NCBI GenBank assembly: GCA_903835005.1
Contig: CAILLK010000127.1
Coordinates: 1-64,000, forward strand
DNA length: 64,000 bases
Source of the DNA: an uncultured Bacteroidota bacterium
GTDB taxonomy: Bacteria > Bacteroidota > Bacteroidia > Chitinophagales > Chitinophagaceae
Direction of reading: 5' to 3'
In this document: piece by piece, positions 51,165-57,346 of the stretch
Layout of the letters: the number at the start of each line of letters is the position of its first letter
Numbering within the stretch: the first letter of the stretch is position 1
Translations under genes and position numbers: made by a program
Notes under the pieces: generated by a model
Seen by the model: only the letters and a program-made list of their open reading frames with translations
What the model was told of the DNA's origin: nothing
Databases searched by the model: none

Positions 51165-51884
51165 TCATTCATCCGTATCCTCCGGTTGTTCCGGCTCATT
51201 TTCTTCCTCTTCATGTTTTCCAAAACGGCCGGTTAAAACTATAGGCGCTTCGGGCAGGGAAAAACTGATGAAATAAATGGTCCGGCCTTCGGCGAGGTGC
51301 ATTTTCTCGTAAAAAGTCTGGATGGCGAGGGAACCTGTGGCAAGGCCTTTTCCGTAAATATCGGCTATATTTTCGTGAATAATGCAGCCTTCCTCCGCAA
51401 TGGTTTCGAGTGTAAAATCATAGAGTTCTTTTGAGTCGGTTTTGAGGTTTATGGTTGCTCCGGGTTTCAGGATCTGCTGGTACAGATGCAGGAAGCGGGG
51501 ATGGGTGAGGCGGTTCTTGGCTTTTTTAAGGAAGGGATCAGGAAATATAATCCAGATTTGTGCTACCTCGCCGGGGGCAAAATAATTGGTTATCTGCCCG
51601 ATGTGTATGCGCAGAAAACCAACATTATCCAGGCCTTCGGTGAGCGCTGTAGTTGCTCCCCTGTATATTCGGTTGCCTTTTATATCTACTCCAATGTAGT
51701 TCTTCTCTTTATGTTCACGGCCCAGGCCCACGCTATACTCACCCTTGCCACAAGCCAGCTCGAGGGTAATAGGGTGGTCGTTGCGAAAAAAAGTTTTCCA
51801 GTTGCCCGGCATGTTTTCGGGGTACTGCAGCACATTTTTGTAAGTATCAATAGCCTGGAATTTGATCAGTTTTTTATGTCCCAT
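51165..51884 (-). CDS. trmB: tRNA (guanine-N7-)-methyltransferase
   Basis: 239 aa from ATG 51884; the track start at 51893 is a TTG inside the -7 box and is rejected. Rossmann methyltransferase with TLELACGKGEYSVGLG, GVDIKGNRIYRGA, and the TrmB-specific IFPDPFLKKAKNRLTHPRFLHLY. It forms m7G46 in the tRNA variable loop. A Glu/Asp-rich tail (EEEENEPEQPEDTDE) follows the domain. The -7 box ends 6 nt before the ATG, so the mRNA may be leaderless. Confidence 0.94.
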   Translation of the reverse strand: MGHKKLIKFQAIDTYKNVLQYPENMPGNWKTFFRNDHPITLELACGKGEYSVGLGREHKEKNYIGVDIKGNRIYRGATTALTEGLDNVGFLRIHIGQITNYFAPGEVAQIWIIFPDPFLKKAKNRLTHPRFLHLYQQILKPGATINLKTDSKELYDFTLETIAEEGCIIHENIADIYGKGLATGSLAIQTFYEKMHLAEGRTIYFISFSLPEAPIVLTGRFGKHEEEENEPEQPEDTDE

Positions 51885-51890
51885 GAGTAG

Positions 51891-51898
51891 CAAAGGTA
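51891..51898 (-). promoter_or_regulatory. -7 box (TACCTTTG) abutting the trmB start
   Basis: Minus strand TACCTTTG followed by CTACTC and ATG. It decides the start codon: the upstream TTG lies within the box. No -33 TTTG seen. Confidence 0.55.
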
Positions 51899-52147: not shown

Positions 52148-53005
52148 ATGAAAAAAAATTCATTAATATTGGTAGCAGCTGCTGCTCTGATTTATATTAC
52201 GCTTTCCAGCGATATAGATGGCGCTGCTCATCATGGACATGGAGATGTTACCGGAGCCCCATCAGGAGTGGCTGGCCATTGCCAGACAAGCAGTTGCCAT
52301 GGAAGTAATAATGTATTGACAGTCGTTAAGCTTCAGGTCTTGGATTCATCATCAATGCTTCCGGTAACTAATTATAATCCGGGCCAGACCTACCTGGTTA
52401 CACTGAACGGAGATGCAACGGCAGTTTCTACCAATCTTCCCGGATTTGGATTTATGGTATCGGCTGTATCTGGCAGCCATACATATTCCGGAACATATAG
52501 TATCCCAACGGCATTGGCAAGTTATATACATACTTATCCCTGCGGAGGTACAACGGTGGTGGAACATTCAATAACGTTGAGGCAAATAACTACCGGGACG
52601 AATACTTATGCCACACAATTTTACTGGACAGCGCCCACAGGTACAAGCGACAGTGTATCGTTCTTTTCTCTGTTGAATGCAGTAAACGGAAACAGTGCGA
52701 GCTCAGGTGACTACCCGAATGCGGCACCCGTAGTAACCATATATCAAAATGTAACAACATCCGTGGCTCCCACTCAATCGGCCGGTAATGAAATAGCTGT
52801 TTACCCTAACCCTGCAAGGAACCAGATTAATATAGCATATAACGAAAAAATAACCGACATTGCAATTCTGAATTTTTTGGGGCAAACAGTTTATTGTTCA
52901 AAGAATAATTCAGTAAACCCTGCTATTAAAATAAGTGATCTGCCATCCGGCCTTTATTATGTATTAATAAATAATCGTGTTTCTGCGAAGTTTTTGAAGG
53001 ACTGA
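52148..53005 (+). CDS. T9SS-secreted choice-of-anchor V protein, copy 1 (CX4CH)
   Basis: 285 aa. Signal peptide, then a Gly/His-rich lead (GAAHHGHGDVTGAP) and GHCQTSSCHGSN, a CX4CH motif at about residues 43-49. The reeler-like beta domain follows (VVKLQVLDSSSMLPVTNYNPGQTYLVTLNG, GFGFMVSAVSG, QFYWTAPTGTSDSVSFFSLLNAVNG) and a T9SS sorting domain ends the protein (AVYPNPARNQINIAY, GLYYVLINNRVSAKFLKD). The C-terminal part differs from copies 2-4, so it is the most distant member of the array. Predicted surface or secreted. CXnCH could bind haem or a metal, but only classical CXXCH is known to carry haem c. Confidence 0.85.
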   Translation: MKKNSLILVAAAALIYITLSSDIDGAAHHGHGDVTGAPSGVAGHCQTSSCHGSNNVLTVVKLQVLDSSSMLPVTNYNPGQTYLVTLNGDATAVSTNLPGFGFMVSAVSGSHTYSGTYSIPTALASYIHTYPCGGTTVVEHSITLRQITTGTNTYATQFYWTAPTGTSDSVSFFSLLNAVNGNSASSGDYPNAAPVVTIYQNVTTSVAPTQSAGNEIAVYPNPARNQINIAYNEKITDIAILNFLGQTVYCSKNNSVNPAIKISDLPSGLYYVLINNRVSAKFLKD

Positions 53006-53069
53006 TTAGGGTATCCAGGCTGACTAAGAATAATCAGGTATTTTTAATAAAACAGGATAAAAGTTGATT

Positions 53070-53098
53070 GGGCCAATTTGTAATTGGCCCTTTCGTAA
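53070..53098 (+). terminator. Terminator of choice-of-anchor V copy 1
   Basis: GGGCCAAT (53070-53077), loop TTTGTA-like 5 nt, ATTGGCCC (53083-53090), then TTTCGTAATTTT. Perfect 8-bp stem with a short T run. Confidence 0.72.
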
Positions 53099-53354
53099 TT
53101 TTAGAATTATAAATATTAATAATGCATCTGCGTCTAACGGACTGGTGGAAATCGAATTCTTTCTTTTGTACAGATATGTGCTCTTACTCCTAATCCTGCT
53201 CCCCTGAGTGGTTTTTAGAATAATTTCGACAACAAAAATAAAGTTTGGCCTGGTTTTTGCTGCAAACTATTCGGTTGCAGTTTTTCCCGGTTCAGCAGCT
53301 GCAAAAGAGGGCCTGTAAGGTTTGTTGCCGGGTATGGTTTTTTATTAACTTAAT

Positions 53355-53386
53355 TTTGGTTCTATTTATTTAAGTACCTACATTTG
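53355..53386 (+). promoter_or_regulatory. Consensus promoter TTTG-N20-TACATTTG of copy 2
   Basis: TTTG at 53355-53358, exactly 20 nt, TACATTTG at 53379-53386. Leader to the ATG at 53441 is about 50 nt. Confidence 0.78.
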
Positions 53387-53440
53387 ATTTTTGCCAAATA
53401 TTCAATAACTATTTCATAAACAACAAAAACCACACAAAAA

Positions 53441-54352
53441 ATGAAGAAAAGAATTTTACTATTTACCATTGCTGCAGGTATGTGTACCCTTACTTTAAGC
53501 AGTTACCTTGCCGGTCCTGCATCTATGGGTTATGACTGCACCGGAGCTGAATCAGCAGGTACAGGTGCTTTTACTAACCCTACAGGCTGCACAATAGGAT
53601 CTGGATGCCACTCATCTTCTGCCACTACAACAATTACTGCAGGCATAGAGCTTGACTCTGCCGGTATAGCAACTACTCACTACAGGCCCGGAGTAACATA
53701 CACCATAAAACTTACCGGAACTAACGGAACGGCGACATCTTATCCGGATTATGGTTTCCAGATTGCTGTTCTAAAAGGAACTGCATCAGCTGGAACAAAT
53801 ACTGATGCCGGAGCCTTTGCTACAACTAGTCTGCCCACAAATACACATATTCAGGCTCCGGGCGCACATACAGCTTTAACTATTGCAGAACATAGTACGG
53901 CGCTTGCTGTTACCGGTACAACCTTTACACAATCCTTTGTATGGACTGCCCCTTCGACAAACGTTGGCAGCATATCTATATGGGCAGGAGTTAATTTTAC
54001 AAATGGTAGTACTATAAATTATTCTGGTGATCAGTGGAATACTAATCATGTTACTATTGCTGTTTGGCCCTCAGTTACAAGCGTCTCCAGTGTTATAACT
54101 GATCTTTCTGTAACTGCCTTCCCTAACCCGGCAATATCCAACTTCAACTTGCAGCTTGAGAATGCTCAGCAAGGCATTTACACACTGCAAATATTCAACA
54201 TGAACGGAAGTGTTATTACCAGCCAGAATGTAGCAGTAAATAATGCTATAGAAACTGCAAGCATAAATACCAGCAACTGGCCCGCAGGGTTGTATAATGT
54301 AGTTGTTGAAAAAGATGGTAATAAGAAGAGTTTGATTGTGGTGAAGCAATAA
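53441..54352 (+). CDS. T9SS-secreted choice-of-anchor V protein, copy 2 (CX5CH)
   Basis: 303 aa. Begins MKKRILLFTIAAG, shared with copy 3 (MKKRILLFTLVAG). The family core GYDCTGAESAGTGAFTNPTG is followed by CTIGSGCH (CX5CH), then GIELDSAGIATTHYRPGVTYTIKLTG, YGFQIAVLKGT, TIAEHSTALAVTGTTFTQSFVWTAP, and a T9SS domain (AFPNPAISNFNLQLENAQQG, NGSVITSQNVAVNNAIETA, GLYNVVVEKDGNKKSLIVVKQ). The C-terminal ~75 residues are nearly the same in copies 2, 3 and 4. Own promoter and terminator, so monocistronic. Confidence 0.87.
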   Translation: MKKRILLFTIAAGMCTLTLSSYLAGPASMGYDCTGAESAGTGAFTNPTGCTIGSGCHSSSATTTITAGIELDSAGIATTHYRPGVTYTIKLTGTNGTATSYPDYGFQIAVLKGTASAGTNTDAGAFATTSLPTNTHIQAPGAHTALTIAEHSTALAVTGTTFTQSFVWTAPSTNVGSISIWAGVNFTNGSTINYSGDQWNTNHVTIAVWPSVTSVSSVITDLSVTAFPNPAISNFNLQLENAQQGIYTLQIFNMNGSVITSQNVAVNNAIETASINTSNWPAGLYNVVVEKDGNKKSLIVVKQ

Positions 54353-54370
54353 TTATAATAAACATTAATC

Positions 54371-54406
54371 AAATGCCATTCGGATTAGCCGGGTGGCATT
54401 TTTTAT
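54371..54406 (+). terminator. Terminator of copy 2
   Basis: AAATGCCA (54371-54378), 15-nt loop, TGGCATTTTTT (from 54394). 8-bp stem with T run. Confidence 0.75.
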
Positions 54407-54451
54407 TGTATGATTGGTTGTTTAAGTAAAAGGGGATAAGATGGTCCTGAA

Positions 54452-54483
54452 TTTGTTTATTTTTATGAATGTACCTACATTCG
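54452..54483 (+). promoter_or_regulatory. Promoter TTTG-N20-TACATTCG of copy 3
   Basis: TTTG at 54452-54455, exactly 20 nt, TACATTCG (one mismatch) at 54476-54483. The stretch GTACCTACATT is shared with the copy 2 promoter, showing that promoter and gene were duplicated together. Confidence 0.7.
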
Positions 54484-54532
54484 CATTTCTCGAATTTATT
54501 AAAAATCAATTTTTTAGCATTCAAAAAGTTTT

Positions 54533-55450
54533 ATGAAGAAAAGAATTTTACTATTTACATTAGTTGCAGGATTGGGATCTGTGGTATTCAGCAGCTATCA
54601 TGGTGGGGCTGCAATAAGCGGTTATGACTGTACGGGTGCGGAATCGGCTGGCACAGGTATGCAGGCAAATCCCACGGGTTGTGCCGCATCGGGTAGTGGC
54701 TGCCACGCTACATCTGCTACTACAGGAATTACAGTTGCAATGGAGCTGGATTCGGCAGGAACTCCTACTACCTACTGGAAGGCAGGCCATACCTATACGG
54801 TTAAAATCACAGGTACCAATACTACAGGCAATACATTGCCAAAGTATGGTTTCCAGATAGCTGCTCTTAAAGGAACCACTTCTGCTGCTACGGAACATGA
54901 TGCAGGCACCTTGTCAGGTGCACCGGCAGGTACCCATATCACGGCAGCAGTGGCACCCTATACTTATGTGCAGTTAAGCATTGCTGAGCAAAGCTCGGCT
55001 ATTGCACTCAGCGGTACTTCATTTACTCAGTCGTTCACCTGGACAGCACCTGCTGCCGGTACAGGCAGTGTGTCATTCTGGGGTGCAGCTAATTTTGTAA
55101 ATGGCAACGGTGTTCAGGATGCGGGCGATCTGTGGAATACCACCCATATCACGGCAACAGAAATTGTATCGAATGCCGGCGTAGCAAGCATTGGTAATGA
55201 ATTGACCATAAAAGTTTACCCTAATCCGGCAACAACCAGTTGTAATCTGCAACTGCTCAATGCAGAGCCGGGAACTTATGCACTGCAGATCTTCAGTATG
55301 AACGGGAGTGCAGTAATCACCAGGCCCATTGAGGTGAACAATGCCATAGAATCTGCCGGCATTAATACCAGCAACTGGGCCAGCGGATTGTATAATGTGG
55401 TAATAGAAAAAGACGGTAATAAGAAGAGCCTGATTATTGTGAAACAATAA
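54533..55450 (+). CDS. T9SS-secreted choice-of-anchor V protein, copy 3 (CX6CH)
   Basis: 305 aa. GYDCTGAESAGTGMQANPTG leads into CAASGSGCH (CX6CH). Domain as in copy 2: MELDSAGTPTTYWKAGHTYTVKITG, YGFQIAALKGTTS, SIAEQSSAIALSGTSFTQSFTWTAP, SFWGAANFVNGNG. T9SS domain: KVYPNPATTSCNLQLLNAEPG, GLYNVVIEKDGNKKSLIIVKQ. The closest relative in the window is copy 2, so these two are probably the youngest duplication. Own promoter and terminator. Confidence 0.87.
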   Translation: MKKRILLFTLVAGLGSVVFSSYHGGAAISGYDCTGAESAGTGMQANPTGCAASGSGCHATSATTGITVAMELDSAGTPTTYWKAGHTYTVKITGTNTTGNTLPKYGFQIAALKGTTSAATEHDAGTLSGAPAGTHITAAVAPYTYVQLSIAEQSSAIALSGTSFTQSFTWTAPAAGTGSVSFWGAANFVNGNGVQDAGDLWNTTHITATEIVSNAGVASIGNELTIKVYPNPATTSCNLQLLNAEPGTYALQIFSMNGSAVITRPIEVNNAIESAGINTSNWASGLYNVVIEKDGNKKSLIIVKQ

Positions 55451-55471
55451 CCATAGTAAGTAATATTTGAC

Positions 55472-55507
55472 TGCCATCCTTTGGAAAAAGGGTGGCATTT
55501 TTTTTGC
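55472..55507 (+). terminator. Terminator of copy 3
   Basis: TGCCATCC and GGGTGGCA pair (one G-U) around an ~10-nt loop, followed by a run of eight or more T residues. Confidence 0.8.
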
Positions 55508-55656
55508 AGGGCGCAGCCTCGATCTAATAATTTAGTTACCTAAACTTAATTCAACGGTAACGCCTGCTTTTTTTGATGTATCTACTTTTACCGATGAAAT
55601 TATACGCACAAAAAAGTTAAAAACGAATCCTGTAGTAACCAAAACTAATACATACG

Positions 55657-56541
55657 ATGAAGAAAAAAGCTTTACTTCTCCCTATACTTGCAGGATTGGC
55701 CTATGTGCTTTTCTCCAGCTATGCAAGCGGCCCCGCCTATTATGGTATCAACCGTACAGGCTCACAATCAACAGTTACCAATTGCAGCGGCTCTGTGAGT
55801 GGCACCGGCTGCCACGGCGCCGGTACCGGCACAAGCGTATTGCTGACAGTAGATTCGGGCGCCACTACCACTGCCACTACCCACTACATACCTGGGTATA
55901 CCTATACCATCAAAATACATGGCACAAATACTGCCTCATTGCCTGATTTCGGCTGGGAACTTTCAACAGTGAGCGGCACAGGCTCAGGGCAGGTGCAGGC
56001 AGGGGCATTTTCCACTACTATACCGACTCATACTTATGTGGACTCGTGCGCCGGTACAGGGTTGCATATATTTGAGCAAGGAGCTCCATGGCTGGGTGCT
56101 CCGGCCGGAACCTACGATGTAGCGGTGCAATGGACAGCGCCGGCAACAAATGTGGGAAATATTACCTTATACTGCACGCTTAATGCTGTTGTTGGTACCT
56201 CGGGTTCCGTATCGGCATCAGATGCATCAGGCAATACTTCTCTGGTACTTACACCAATTACTTCTGCATCTGTTGTCTCTGCCGTAAGCGAAACCGGCTT
56301 GAGCGCCTACCCGAATCCGGTTACCGGCAATTTCAACATGCAACTGGATAATGCCCAATCTGGAACATATACTATACAGATATTCAATATGATTGGAAGT
56401 GTAATCACTACACAGAATATTGAGGTTAACAATGCCATTGAATCAGCCACCATTAATACTAGCAACTGGGCCAGCGGGTTATATAACGTGGTTATAGAAA
56501 AGGACGGTAATAAGAAGAGCGTGCTTGTAGTGAAACAATAA
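55657..56541 (+). CDS. T9SS-secreted choice-of-anchor V protein, copy 4 (CX8CH)
   Basis: 294 aa. The Cys spacing is longest here: CSGSVSGTGCH (CX8CH). The N-terminus keeps GPAYYGINRTGSQSTVTN; the core (VLLTVDSGATTTATTHYIPGYTYTIKIHG, FGWELSTVSGTGSGQ, APAGTYDVAVQWTAPATNVGNITLYCTLNAVVG) has diverged from copies 2 and 3. The T9SS domain (AYPNPVTGNFNMQLDNAQSG, GLYNVVIEKDGNKKSVLVVKQ) is almost unchanged. The promoter region keeps TTACCTAAACTTA, a decayed version of the copy 2/3 box. Own terminator. Cargo of T9SS, function unknown. Confidence 0.86.
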   Translation: MKKKALLLPILAGLAYVLFSSYASGPAYYGINRTGSQSTVTNCSGSVSGTGCHGAGTGTSVLLTVDSGATTTATTHYIPGYTYTIKIHGTNTASLPDFGWELSTVSGTGSGQVQAGAFSTTIPTHTYVDSCAGTGLHIFEQGAPWLGAPAGTYDVAVQWTAPATNVGNITLYCTLNAVVGTSGSVSASDASGNTSLVLTPITSASVVSAVSETGLSAYPNPVTGNFNMQLDNAQSGTYTIQIFNMIGSVITTQNIEVNNAIESATINTSNWASGLYNVVIEKDGNKKSVLVVKQ

Positions 56542-56565
56542 ATGTGTATTAAGCTGTATTATATA

Positions 56566-56599
56566 AAAAAGCCATCCACTATCTGGGATGGTTTTTTTA
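56566..56599 (+). terminator. Terminator of copy 4
   Basis: AAGCCATCC and GGATGGTT pair around an 8-nt loop (one G-U), followed by a T7 run. Confidence 0.8.
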
Positions 56600-56668
56600 T
56601 AAATTTTAATCTGTTGTTTGGTTATAAGAAAAATAGTGATTTACTTAGATGAAGCATAATTTGATTTC

Positions 56669-56974
56669 GTGAACATAATCCACTTCCTGGAGTCGCACAG
56701 CCTGCCTTGCCCATCAAAGGCATTGGTGCATTTCGATTGCCCGGGTTGTGGTATGCAGCGCAGTTTTATTTATCTGCTCAAAGGCGACCTGGTGAAAAGC
56801 ATATCCATGCACCCGGCTACTATACCTACGCTGGGCCTGGTTGTTTTTGCTCTGTTACATTTTATTTTCAGGTTCAGTAAGGGAGCAAAAATTATCGTTA
56901 TACTACAGTTGTCTGTTGCAATTATCACTATGGTTTTTTATATTTACAAAATTGTTACTCACAAAATTTTTTAA
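56669..56974 (+). CDS. DUF2752 membrane protein
   Basis: 101 aa starting at GTG 56669. The hallmark CPGCGMQRSFIYLLKGDLVKSISMHP (DUF2752: C-P-x-C-G-x-x-R) is followed by two TM helices (TIPTLGLVVFALLHFIF, IIVILQLSVAIITMVFYIYKIV). Conserved cysteines suggest metal or redox chemistry, but the family's function is unknown. It lies 3 nt before the CCC-motif gene, a pairing often seen in Bacteroidota, and directly downstream of the Cys-rich T9SS array. Confidence 0.88.
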   Translation: MNIIHFLESHSLPCPSKALVHFDCPGCGMQRSFIYLLKGDLVKSISMHPATIPTLGLVVFALLHFIFRFSKGAKIIVILQLSVAIITMVFYIYKIVTHKIF

Positions 56975-56977
56975 GTA

Positions 56978-57346
56978 ATGGAAAATCAAACAACAAACAG
57001 CTCTGTATTTGATAATAACGGCCCTCAGCAGAGTCTTCCCAATGCTACAGCCGTGCTGGTATTGGGTATTATATCTATTGTTGGCTGTTTTTGTTATGGC
57101 CTTGTGGGTACTATATGCGGTATTATAGCGCTGGTACTGGCATCGAAGGATAATGCCCGCTATATGGCCACACCGCACTTGTTCACTCCTGCATCTTACA
57201 GCAATCTGAGAGGCGGGCGTGTATGCGCTATTATCGGGTTGATCATCTCTTCGCTGTATCTTATTTTTGTGATTGTGATTATTGCTGCTATCGGGTTTGC
57301 CGGATTAAGCCATCCGCAGGATTTCTTTCAGCACCTCAATCATTAA
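56978..57346 (+). CDS. CCC-motif membrane protein (DUF4190-like)
   Basis: 122 aa with two hydrophobic hairpins (ATAVLVLGIISIVGCFCYGLVGTICGIIALVLAS, GRVCAIIGLIISSLYLIFVIVIIAAIGF) and spaced cysteines (GCFCYG, TICG) of the CCC-motif family. A polar N-terminus (ENQTTNSSVFDNNGPQQS) is cytoplasmic. It shares an operon with the DUF2752 gene. Role unknown; transport or assembly accessory is a guess. Confidence 0.8.
   Translation: MENQTTNSSVFDNNGPQQSLPNATAVLVLGIISIVGCFCYGLVGTICGIIALVLASKDNARYMATPHLFTPASYSNLRGGRVCAIIGLIISSLYLIFVIVIIAAIGFAGLSHPQDFFQHLNH

Follow-up and report, generated by a model that had tools for sequence, protein, structure and literature searches.

Invariant cysteines and histidine around a freely varying gap in T9SS-exported Reeler-domain proteins: a possible length-tolerant haem c site

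Background

What purpose can a Cys-Xn-Cys-His motif serve if its spacing differs in every gene of a tandem array? The question is raised by four consecutive open reading frames (ORFs; 52148-56541, all on the + strand) in a 64,000-nucleotide stretch of contig CAILLK010000127.1, hereafter the window, from a freshwater Bacteroidota bacterium. Each predicted protein consists of a signal peptide, a domain of ~160 residues and a type A sorting tail of the type IX secretion system (T9SS) scoring over the curated cut-off. A first, sequence-only reading of the window described these ORFs as paralogues carrying CX4CH, CX5CH, CX6CH and CX8CH close behind the signal peptide, and all four motifs were indeed read at those sites. 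It offered two explanations, namely that the motif is decaying by stepwise insertion of small residues, or that a Cys-Cys-His loop of tolerated length binds a metal or forms a disulfide. Here we report that the triad is invariant throughout a large and divergent protein family, and we weigh what kind of site it may form.

Results and Discussion

Conservation of the Cys-Xn-Cys-His motif across the family

Homologues were gathered from 35 genomes of the genus to which the window belongs, as well as from its family and phylum, and all counts are based on 208 distinct domains whose N-terminus is complete. In the alignment of these domains, whose mean column identity is 22-23%, Cys, Cys and His are retained at the N-terminal edge in 208/208, a conservation far beyond chance. 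The spacing n is 4 in 69 domains, 2 in 57, 1 in 46, 5 in 17, 6 in nine, 3 in six, 8 in three and 7 in one; the classical CXXCH is thus seen in 57/208 homologues and in none of the four window copies (n = 4, 5, 6 and 8), and in several lineages n=2 is the sole spacing among the sampled members. The residues of Xn are 71-100% Gly, Ser, Ala or Thr, as compared with a domain background of 47%. Matches of the family hidden Markov model that lack the motif were either two truncations at contig edges or immunoglobulin (Ig)-like repeats and T9SS tails caught by the C-terminal part of the model, which itself includes the motif, so that motif-less homologues may be under-detected. Tabulating n in this way, as the sequence-only reading had proposed, revealed no random loss of Cys or His in the complete domains. 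Its notion of a loop of tolerated length is supported by the constancy of the triad at n = 1-8. The combination of an invariant triad with a free gap of one to eight residues suggests an uncharacterised site that would tolerate any loop length and perhaps hold covalent haem.

A second near-invariant position

One other column of the alignment is nearly exclusive to polar residues, with His in 143 of the 208 domains, Gln in 58, Tyr in six and Asn in one. It lies 63-107 residues downstream of the motif (median 85), and the choice between His and Gln, which together account for 201/208, is independent of n. In sequence, all 208 domains combine a CH histidine, directly behind Cys 2 of the motif, with a residue that is a candidate for the distal ligand. 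Mean-field covariation analysis of the 208 sequences recovered strand-like ladders and coupled the residue before the first Cys with the position three before the His/Gln column, at rank 25 of 9453. Both the flank of the first Cys and the His/Gln region are also coupled with one and the same C-terminal strand; all of these couplings may stem from subfamily effects. Covariation weakly favours a model in which the Cys flank and the strand of the second position lie close together. Family f22 (L235, L236, L237, L239 and L240) has tandem CX4CH pairs whose members differ at the second position, Tyr standing there in place of His in one of the two.

Fold and family membership

The choice-of-anchor V model NF041895 (cut-off 42 bits) matches copies 1 and 3 with 47.6 and 53.0 bits, respectively. 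Copies 2 and 4, unlisted at E<=1, are nevertheless homologous to copies 1 and 3, and all four fall inside the family tree. Since half of the array (53441-54352 and 55657-56541) escapes NF041895, annotation of the choice-of-anchor V family is probably incomplete. Against the Reeler model PF02014 (gathering score 21 bits), copy 1 scores 24.8, copies 2 and 4 remain below with 18.6 and 18.1, and copy 3 has no match. A search of the PDB with the family profile finds the Reeler domain of Spondin-1 (F-spondin; E ~1e-4). For the AlphaFold2 model of copy 4 (n=8; mean predicted local distance difference test score, pLDDT, 89.6), the four best PDB matches are F-spondin Reeler/Reelin-N chains (E 6e-6 to 1.7e-5), and this structural match predicts a Reeler-fold beta-sandwich. 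The model of an n=1 homologue (L012; pLDDT 94.2) gave top 50 structural matches that are Ig-like in general, the F-spondin Reeler chains not being among them.

The window proteins share with NF041895 the general layout, including an exchangeable C-terminal anchor; in the related family NF041894 (MXAN_6652) the anchor is of the MXYO-CTERM type. Nothing on the spacing of the motif or on what the domain does was found for NF041895, and the literature yielded no paper on choice-of-anchor V or on Reeler domains in Bacteroidetes. The likeness to Reeler/Reelin-N (PF02014; human F-spondin 2zou, 2zot and 3coo) lies in the fold and the profile match. F-spondin differs, however, in that the aligned stretch misses the CXnCH region and the printed alignment has no His at the His/Gln column, and animal Reelers are eukaryotic extracellular modules, unlike the proteins of the window.

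Evolution of the loop length

The spacings of the four window copies could be read as a record of decay, in which a former haem-binding CXXCH has lost its function and gathers small insertions. All four copies do depart from the CXXCH spacing, and the residues inserted are small. On a tree of 125 domains of family f1, built with the loop columns left out, n changes at least 49 times and in both directions, with zero losses of the triad; in the full set, C, C or H is lost in 0/208 domains. Orthologues, moreover, hold n for long: the six copy-1 orthologues, copy 1 included, all have n=4, and the nearest orthologue of copy 4 likewise has n=8. The nearest orthologue of copy 3 has n=7 as opposed to n=6 in copy 3 itself. 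Copies 2 and 3 fall in one clade of the tree, copy 4 in a second and copy 1 in a third; judged from this placement, the four copies are representatives of three old clades and not a duplication ladder. Because the triad is never lost, n moves up as well as down and the copies belong to three old clades, decay by stepwise insertion is rejected, and we hold it to be most improbable.

We also considered whether n grows with gene position. A monotonic order of four genes arises by chance in 1 of 24 cases, which is not significant, and the order is not repeated in arrays elsewhere: the nearest relative (G274) reads 4, 8, 7, and others read 5-4, 4-6, 3-6, 6-1 and 5-4-4-4-2. The rising order 4, 5, 6, 8 of the window is a coincidence.

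Genomic neighbours of distant homologues

Several CXXCH homologues lie beside genes of redox proteins. At three loci (L204-L206) the neighbours are Rieske and YceI genes, and at another (L212) a YceI gene and a gene whose CXXCH product matches cytochrome c only below the threshold. An n=1 pair (L222) adjoins a multihaem gene of the nine-CXXCH/b561 type, and a tandem pair (L237) lies within few genes of a cytochrome P460. The recurrence of redox neighbours in separate lineages is circumstantial evidence as to the function of the domain. The loci with Rieske or YceI genes are operon-like sets that contain further membrane or outer-membrane-like proteins. Elsewhere, members of families f23 and f13 (L194-L201 and L203) are each adjoined by a propeller gene of the Vgb_lyase type; these homologues are ~180-200 aa long, carry CXXCH and are without a T9SS tail.

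Nature of the site

Two published systems bear on the possibility that the triad holds haem c. The archaeal protein Igni_0759 was modelled on the Reelin-N template of F-spondin as a monohaem cytochrome c, in which CXXCH would bind the haem and His111, a conserved residue, is a candidate for the distal ligand (PMC4429474). Predicted monohaem cytochromes c of the Igni_0759/Igni_1052 type combine an N-terminal Cys-Cys-His and the Reelin-N template with a conserved His 79 residues further on, within the range of 63-107 observed here; as judged from the published description, Igni_0759 differs in its strict CXXCH, its archaeal origin and its membrane anchor, and its haem is modelled (PMC4429474). 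In MmcA, CX3CH and CX4CH peptides bear haem c by mass spectrometry, a precedent for non-classical spacings 3 and 4, although this protein is multihaem, has another fold and provides no precedent for spacings 1 and 5-8 (PMC11024163). The statement of the sequence-only reading that haem c is attached to CXXCH was accordingly too strict. Since Igni_0759 shares the anatomy of the site and MmcA takes haem c at CX3CH and CX4CH, we tentatively favour, with somewhat less than even confidence, a length-tolerant haem c site in Reeler-domain surface proteins.

The products of the array are secreted proteins that enter the Sec pathway by their signal peptide and are directed to the outer surface by the C-terminal type A signal. 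Under the haem scheme, haem would be attached in the periplasm ahead of T9SS export. Both cysteines and the His would hold a covalent cofactor, for which a single haem c in each domain is the likeliest candidate, with thioethers to one or both cysteines and the CH histidine as proximal ligand; the His, Gln or Tyr of the second position may lie near the distal side of the haem. The proteins might then serve in electron transfer at the cell surface or as sensors of haem or redox state, and their loop length would be near-neutral or would tune exposure and redox potential. The wider proposition, that a large T9SS-exported Reeler family carries a single covalent haem c on CXnCH, with n free from 1 to 8, an exchangeable distal His/Gln/Tyr and maturation enzymes blind to spacing, appears doubtful when taken as a whole.

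Several observations weigh against haem c. Pfam cytochrome c models have no match on the domain, the n=1 and n=2 members included, and no redox genes are found beside the four window copies. The domain also heads repeat adhesins of ~2000 aa that are without evident redox role. Distal ligation by Gln or Tyr is uncommon. For CX1CH, the spacing of 22% of the family, the literature yielded no case of haem c attachment, nor did it yield haem data for bacterial members, and Igni_0759 is itself a model. The haem-c assembly domain PF01578 has three matches in the genome of the window (best E 3.6e-35) and occurs in 247/248 genomes, so that its presence is uninformative, and so is a cross-genome comparison of whether the family depends on haem-c assembly.

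Because of the adhesin-like members, the CX1CH class and the occurrence of Gln and Tyr at the second position, two other explanations stay serious rivals. A disulfide between the cysteines may close off a small loop at the surface, with the adjacent His hydrogen-bonded to the His, Gln or Tyr of a neighbouring strand, so that the N-terminal segment is pinned to the Reeler sandwich. The proteins would then be cofactor-free adhesion or matrix modules, and as a disulfide accommodates loops of differing length, n would be free to vary. Free variation of n between 1 and 8, with small residues in the loop, agrees with this structural role, the exchange of His, Gln and Tyr is better suited to a hydrogen bond than to metal ligation, and the domain caps large Ig-repeat adhesins. 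Animal Reelers, too, are non-haem extracellular modules, and the F-spondin Reelin-N domain, to go by a title cited in PMC4429474, binds heparin. A merely structural disulfide, however, does not usually keep both cysteines and the neighbouring His without exception over 208 divergent domains, a disulfide across a single residue (CXC) makes a strained ring, and the CXXCH forms beside Rieske and cytochrome genes are left unexplained; we consider a purely structural disulfide unlikely, if well worth keeping in view. Alternatively, Cys, Cys, His and the distal His/Gln might coordinate copper, zinc or iron for surface metal capture or redox chemistry. Four ligand-type residues are retained together, Cys2-His-His/Gln sets are known from copper proteins, and loop length may vary if the residues converge on one ion. 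Reduced thiolates would need to survive outside the cell, some members have Tyr in place of the second residue, and metal-handling genes are absent beside the arrays; a metal site is the less probable of the two rivals.

If the site does hold haem c, the family would offer a natural CX1CH-CX8CH series in one small domain, and thereby a direct test of the motif strictness of haem-c assembly enzymes, and T9SS would be shown to export surface proteins that bear haem. Should it prove to be a disulfide or a metal site instead, there would be an explanation for the unvarying signature of this large and functionally blank family of surface proteins, with the warning that CXXCH motif scans both miss and over-call its members.

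Organization of the array

Copy 1 (52148-53005; 285 aa) has a signal peptide, a Reeler/choice-of-anchor V domain and a T9SS type A tail (52799-53002), with the n=4 motif CQTSSCH (C45/C50/H51) at 52280-52300 and the codon of its candidate distal residue, His140, placed by sequence and alignment at 52565-52567. In copy 2 (53441-54352; 303 aa) the n=5 motif CTIGSGCH (C50/C56/H57) lies at 53588-53611, the corresponding His151 codon at 53891-53893 and the tail at 54119-54349. Copy 3 (54533-55450; 305 aa) carries CAASGSGCH (n=6; C50/C57/H58) at 54680-54706, and its His/Gln position is occupied by Gln153 (54989-54991), followed by the tail at 55214-55447. The same position in copy 4 (55657-56541; 294 aa) is Gln141 (56077-56079), downstream of CSGSVSGTGCH (n=8; C43/C52/H53) at 55783-55815 and upstream of a tail at 56308-56538. 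All four C-termini exceed the TIGR04183 cut-off of 23 bits, with 35.9, 40.6, 41.7 and 38.0 bits for copies 1 to 4, respectively. Over the full length, copies 3 and 4 are 58% and 48% identical to copy 2.

The tails of copies 2-4 had been described as almost constant. They are far more alike than the domains, at 68-74% identity versus 33-50%, a value that nonetheless falls short of near constancy; the tail of copy 1 is only 25-28% identical to the other three. In the domain, copy 4 shares 33-34% identity with copies 2 and 3. Relatives of the copy 4 clade in other species show the opposite pattern, with 53-54% identity in the domain and 41-43% in the tail, the exception being the G274 orthologue (domain 52%, tail 74%). 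From these comparisons, tails seem to have been exchanged or homogenised by gene conversion between neighbours while the domains diverged. In the sister genome G274, tails are likewise more alike than domains (74% vs 30%). Plasmid records gave no match, and viral contigs gave four, all in the T9SS-tail region only.

Putative transcription signals

Every gene of the array had been said to have its own terminator. A hairpin scan detected terminator-like hairpins 3' of copy 2 (54371-54401), copy 3 (55472-55497) and copy 4 (56562-56601), all on the + strand. The terminator of copy 1 is only a possible one, a perfect inverted repeat, GGGCCAATT-TGT-AATTGGCCC (53070-53090, +), followed by a short T tract (TTT), which was read in the sequence and is absent from the hairpin scan listing. 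A promoter-like box, GTACCTACATTTG, stands at 53374-53386 (0 mismatches), 67 bp ahead of where copy 2 begins, and recurs as GTACCTACATTCG before copy 3 (54471-54483; 1 mismatch) and, more weakly, as GTATCTACTTTTA before copy 4 (55578-55590; 3 mismatches), in all three cases on the + strand and 62-79 bp before the start codon; before copy 1 it has 4 mismatches. With up to three mismatches, the box was found upstream of 45/120 family genes, compared with ~5 expected in shuffles, and the TACATTTG within it agrees with TAnnTTTG, the Bacteroidota -7 consensus. Separate terminators and the promoter-like boxes of copies 2-4 fit independent transcription of the copies, whose dosage might thus be tuned separately.

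Further members and flanking genes

Two more members of the family are encoded in the same genome beyond the array. One (L138; contig 32, 12500-20500) is a 2090-aa repeat protein with the domain at its N-terminus (n=4) and a TIGR04183 tail, and the other, on contig 117, is a 437-aa-frame protein with n=1. Ig-like repeats with cysteines are numerous in the long protein, and many members of the genus have counterparts of it, in which n is 1-5. On its 5' side the array adjoins, on the - strand, a gene that we take from its sequence to be trmB (51165-51893); in the wider family a trmB neighbour recurs five times (L244, L247, L251, L252 and L253), at loci that have one or two copies with n from 1 to 6. 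On the 3' side and on the same strand as the array, two small membrane-protein-like ORFs follow (56669-57346), the first of which is, from the look of its sequence, presumably of the DUF2752 type.

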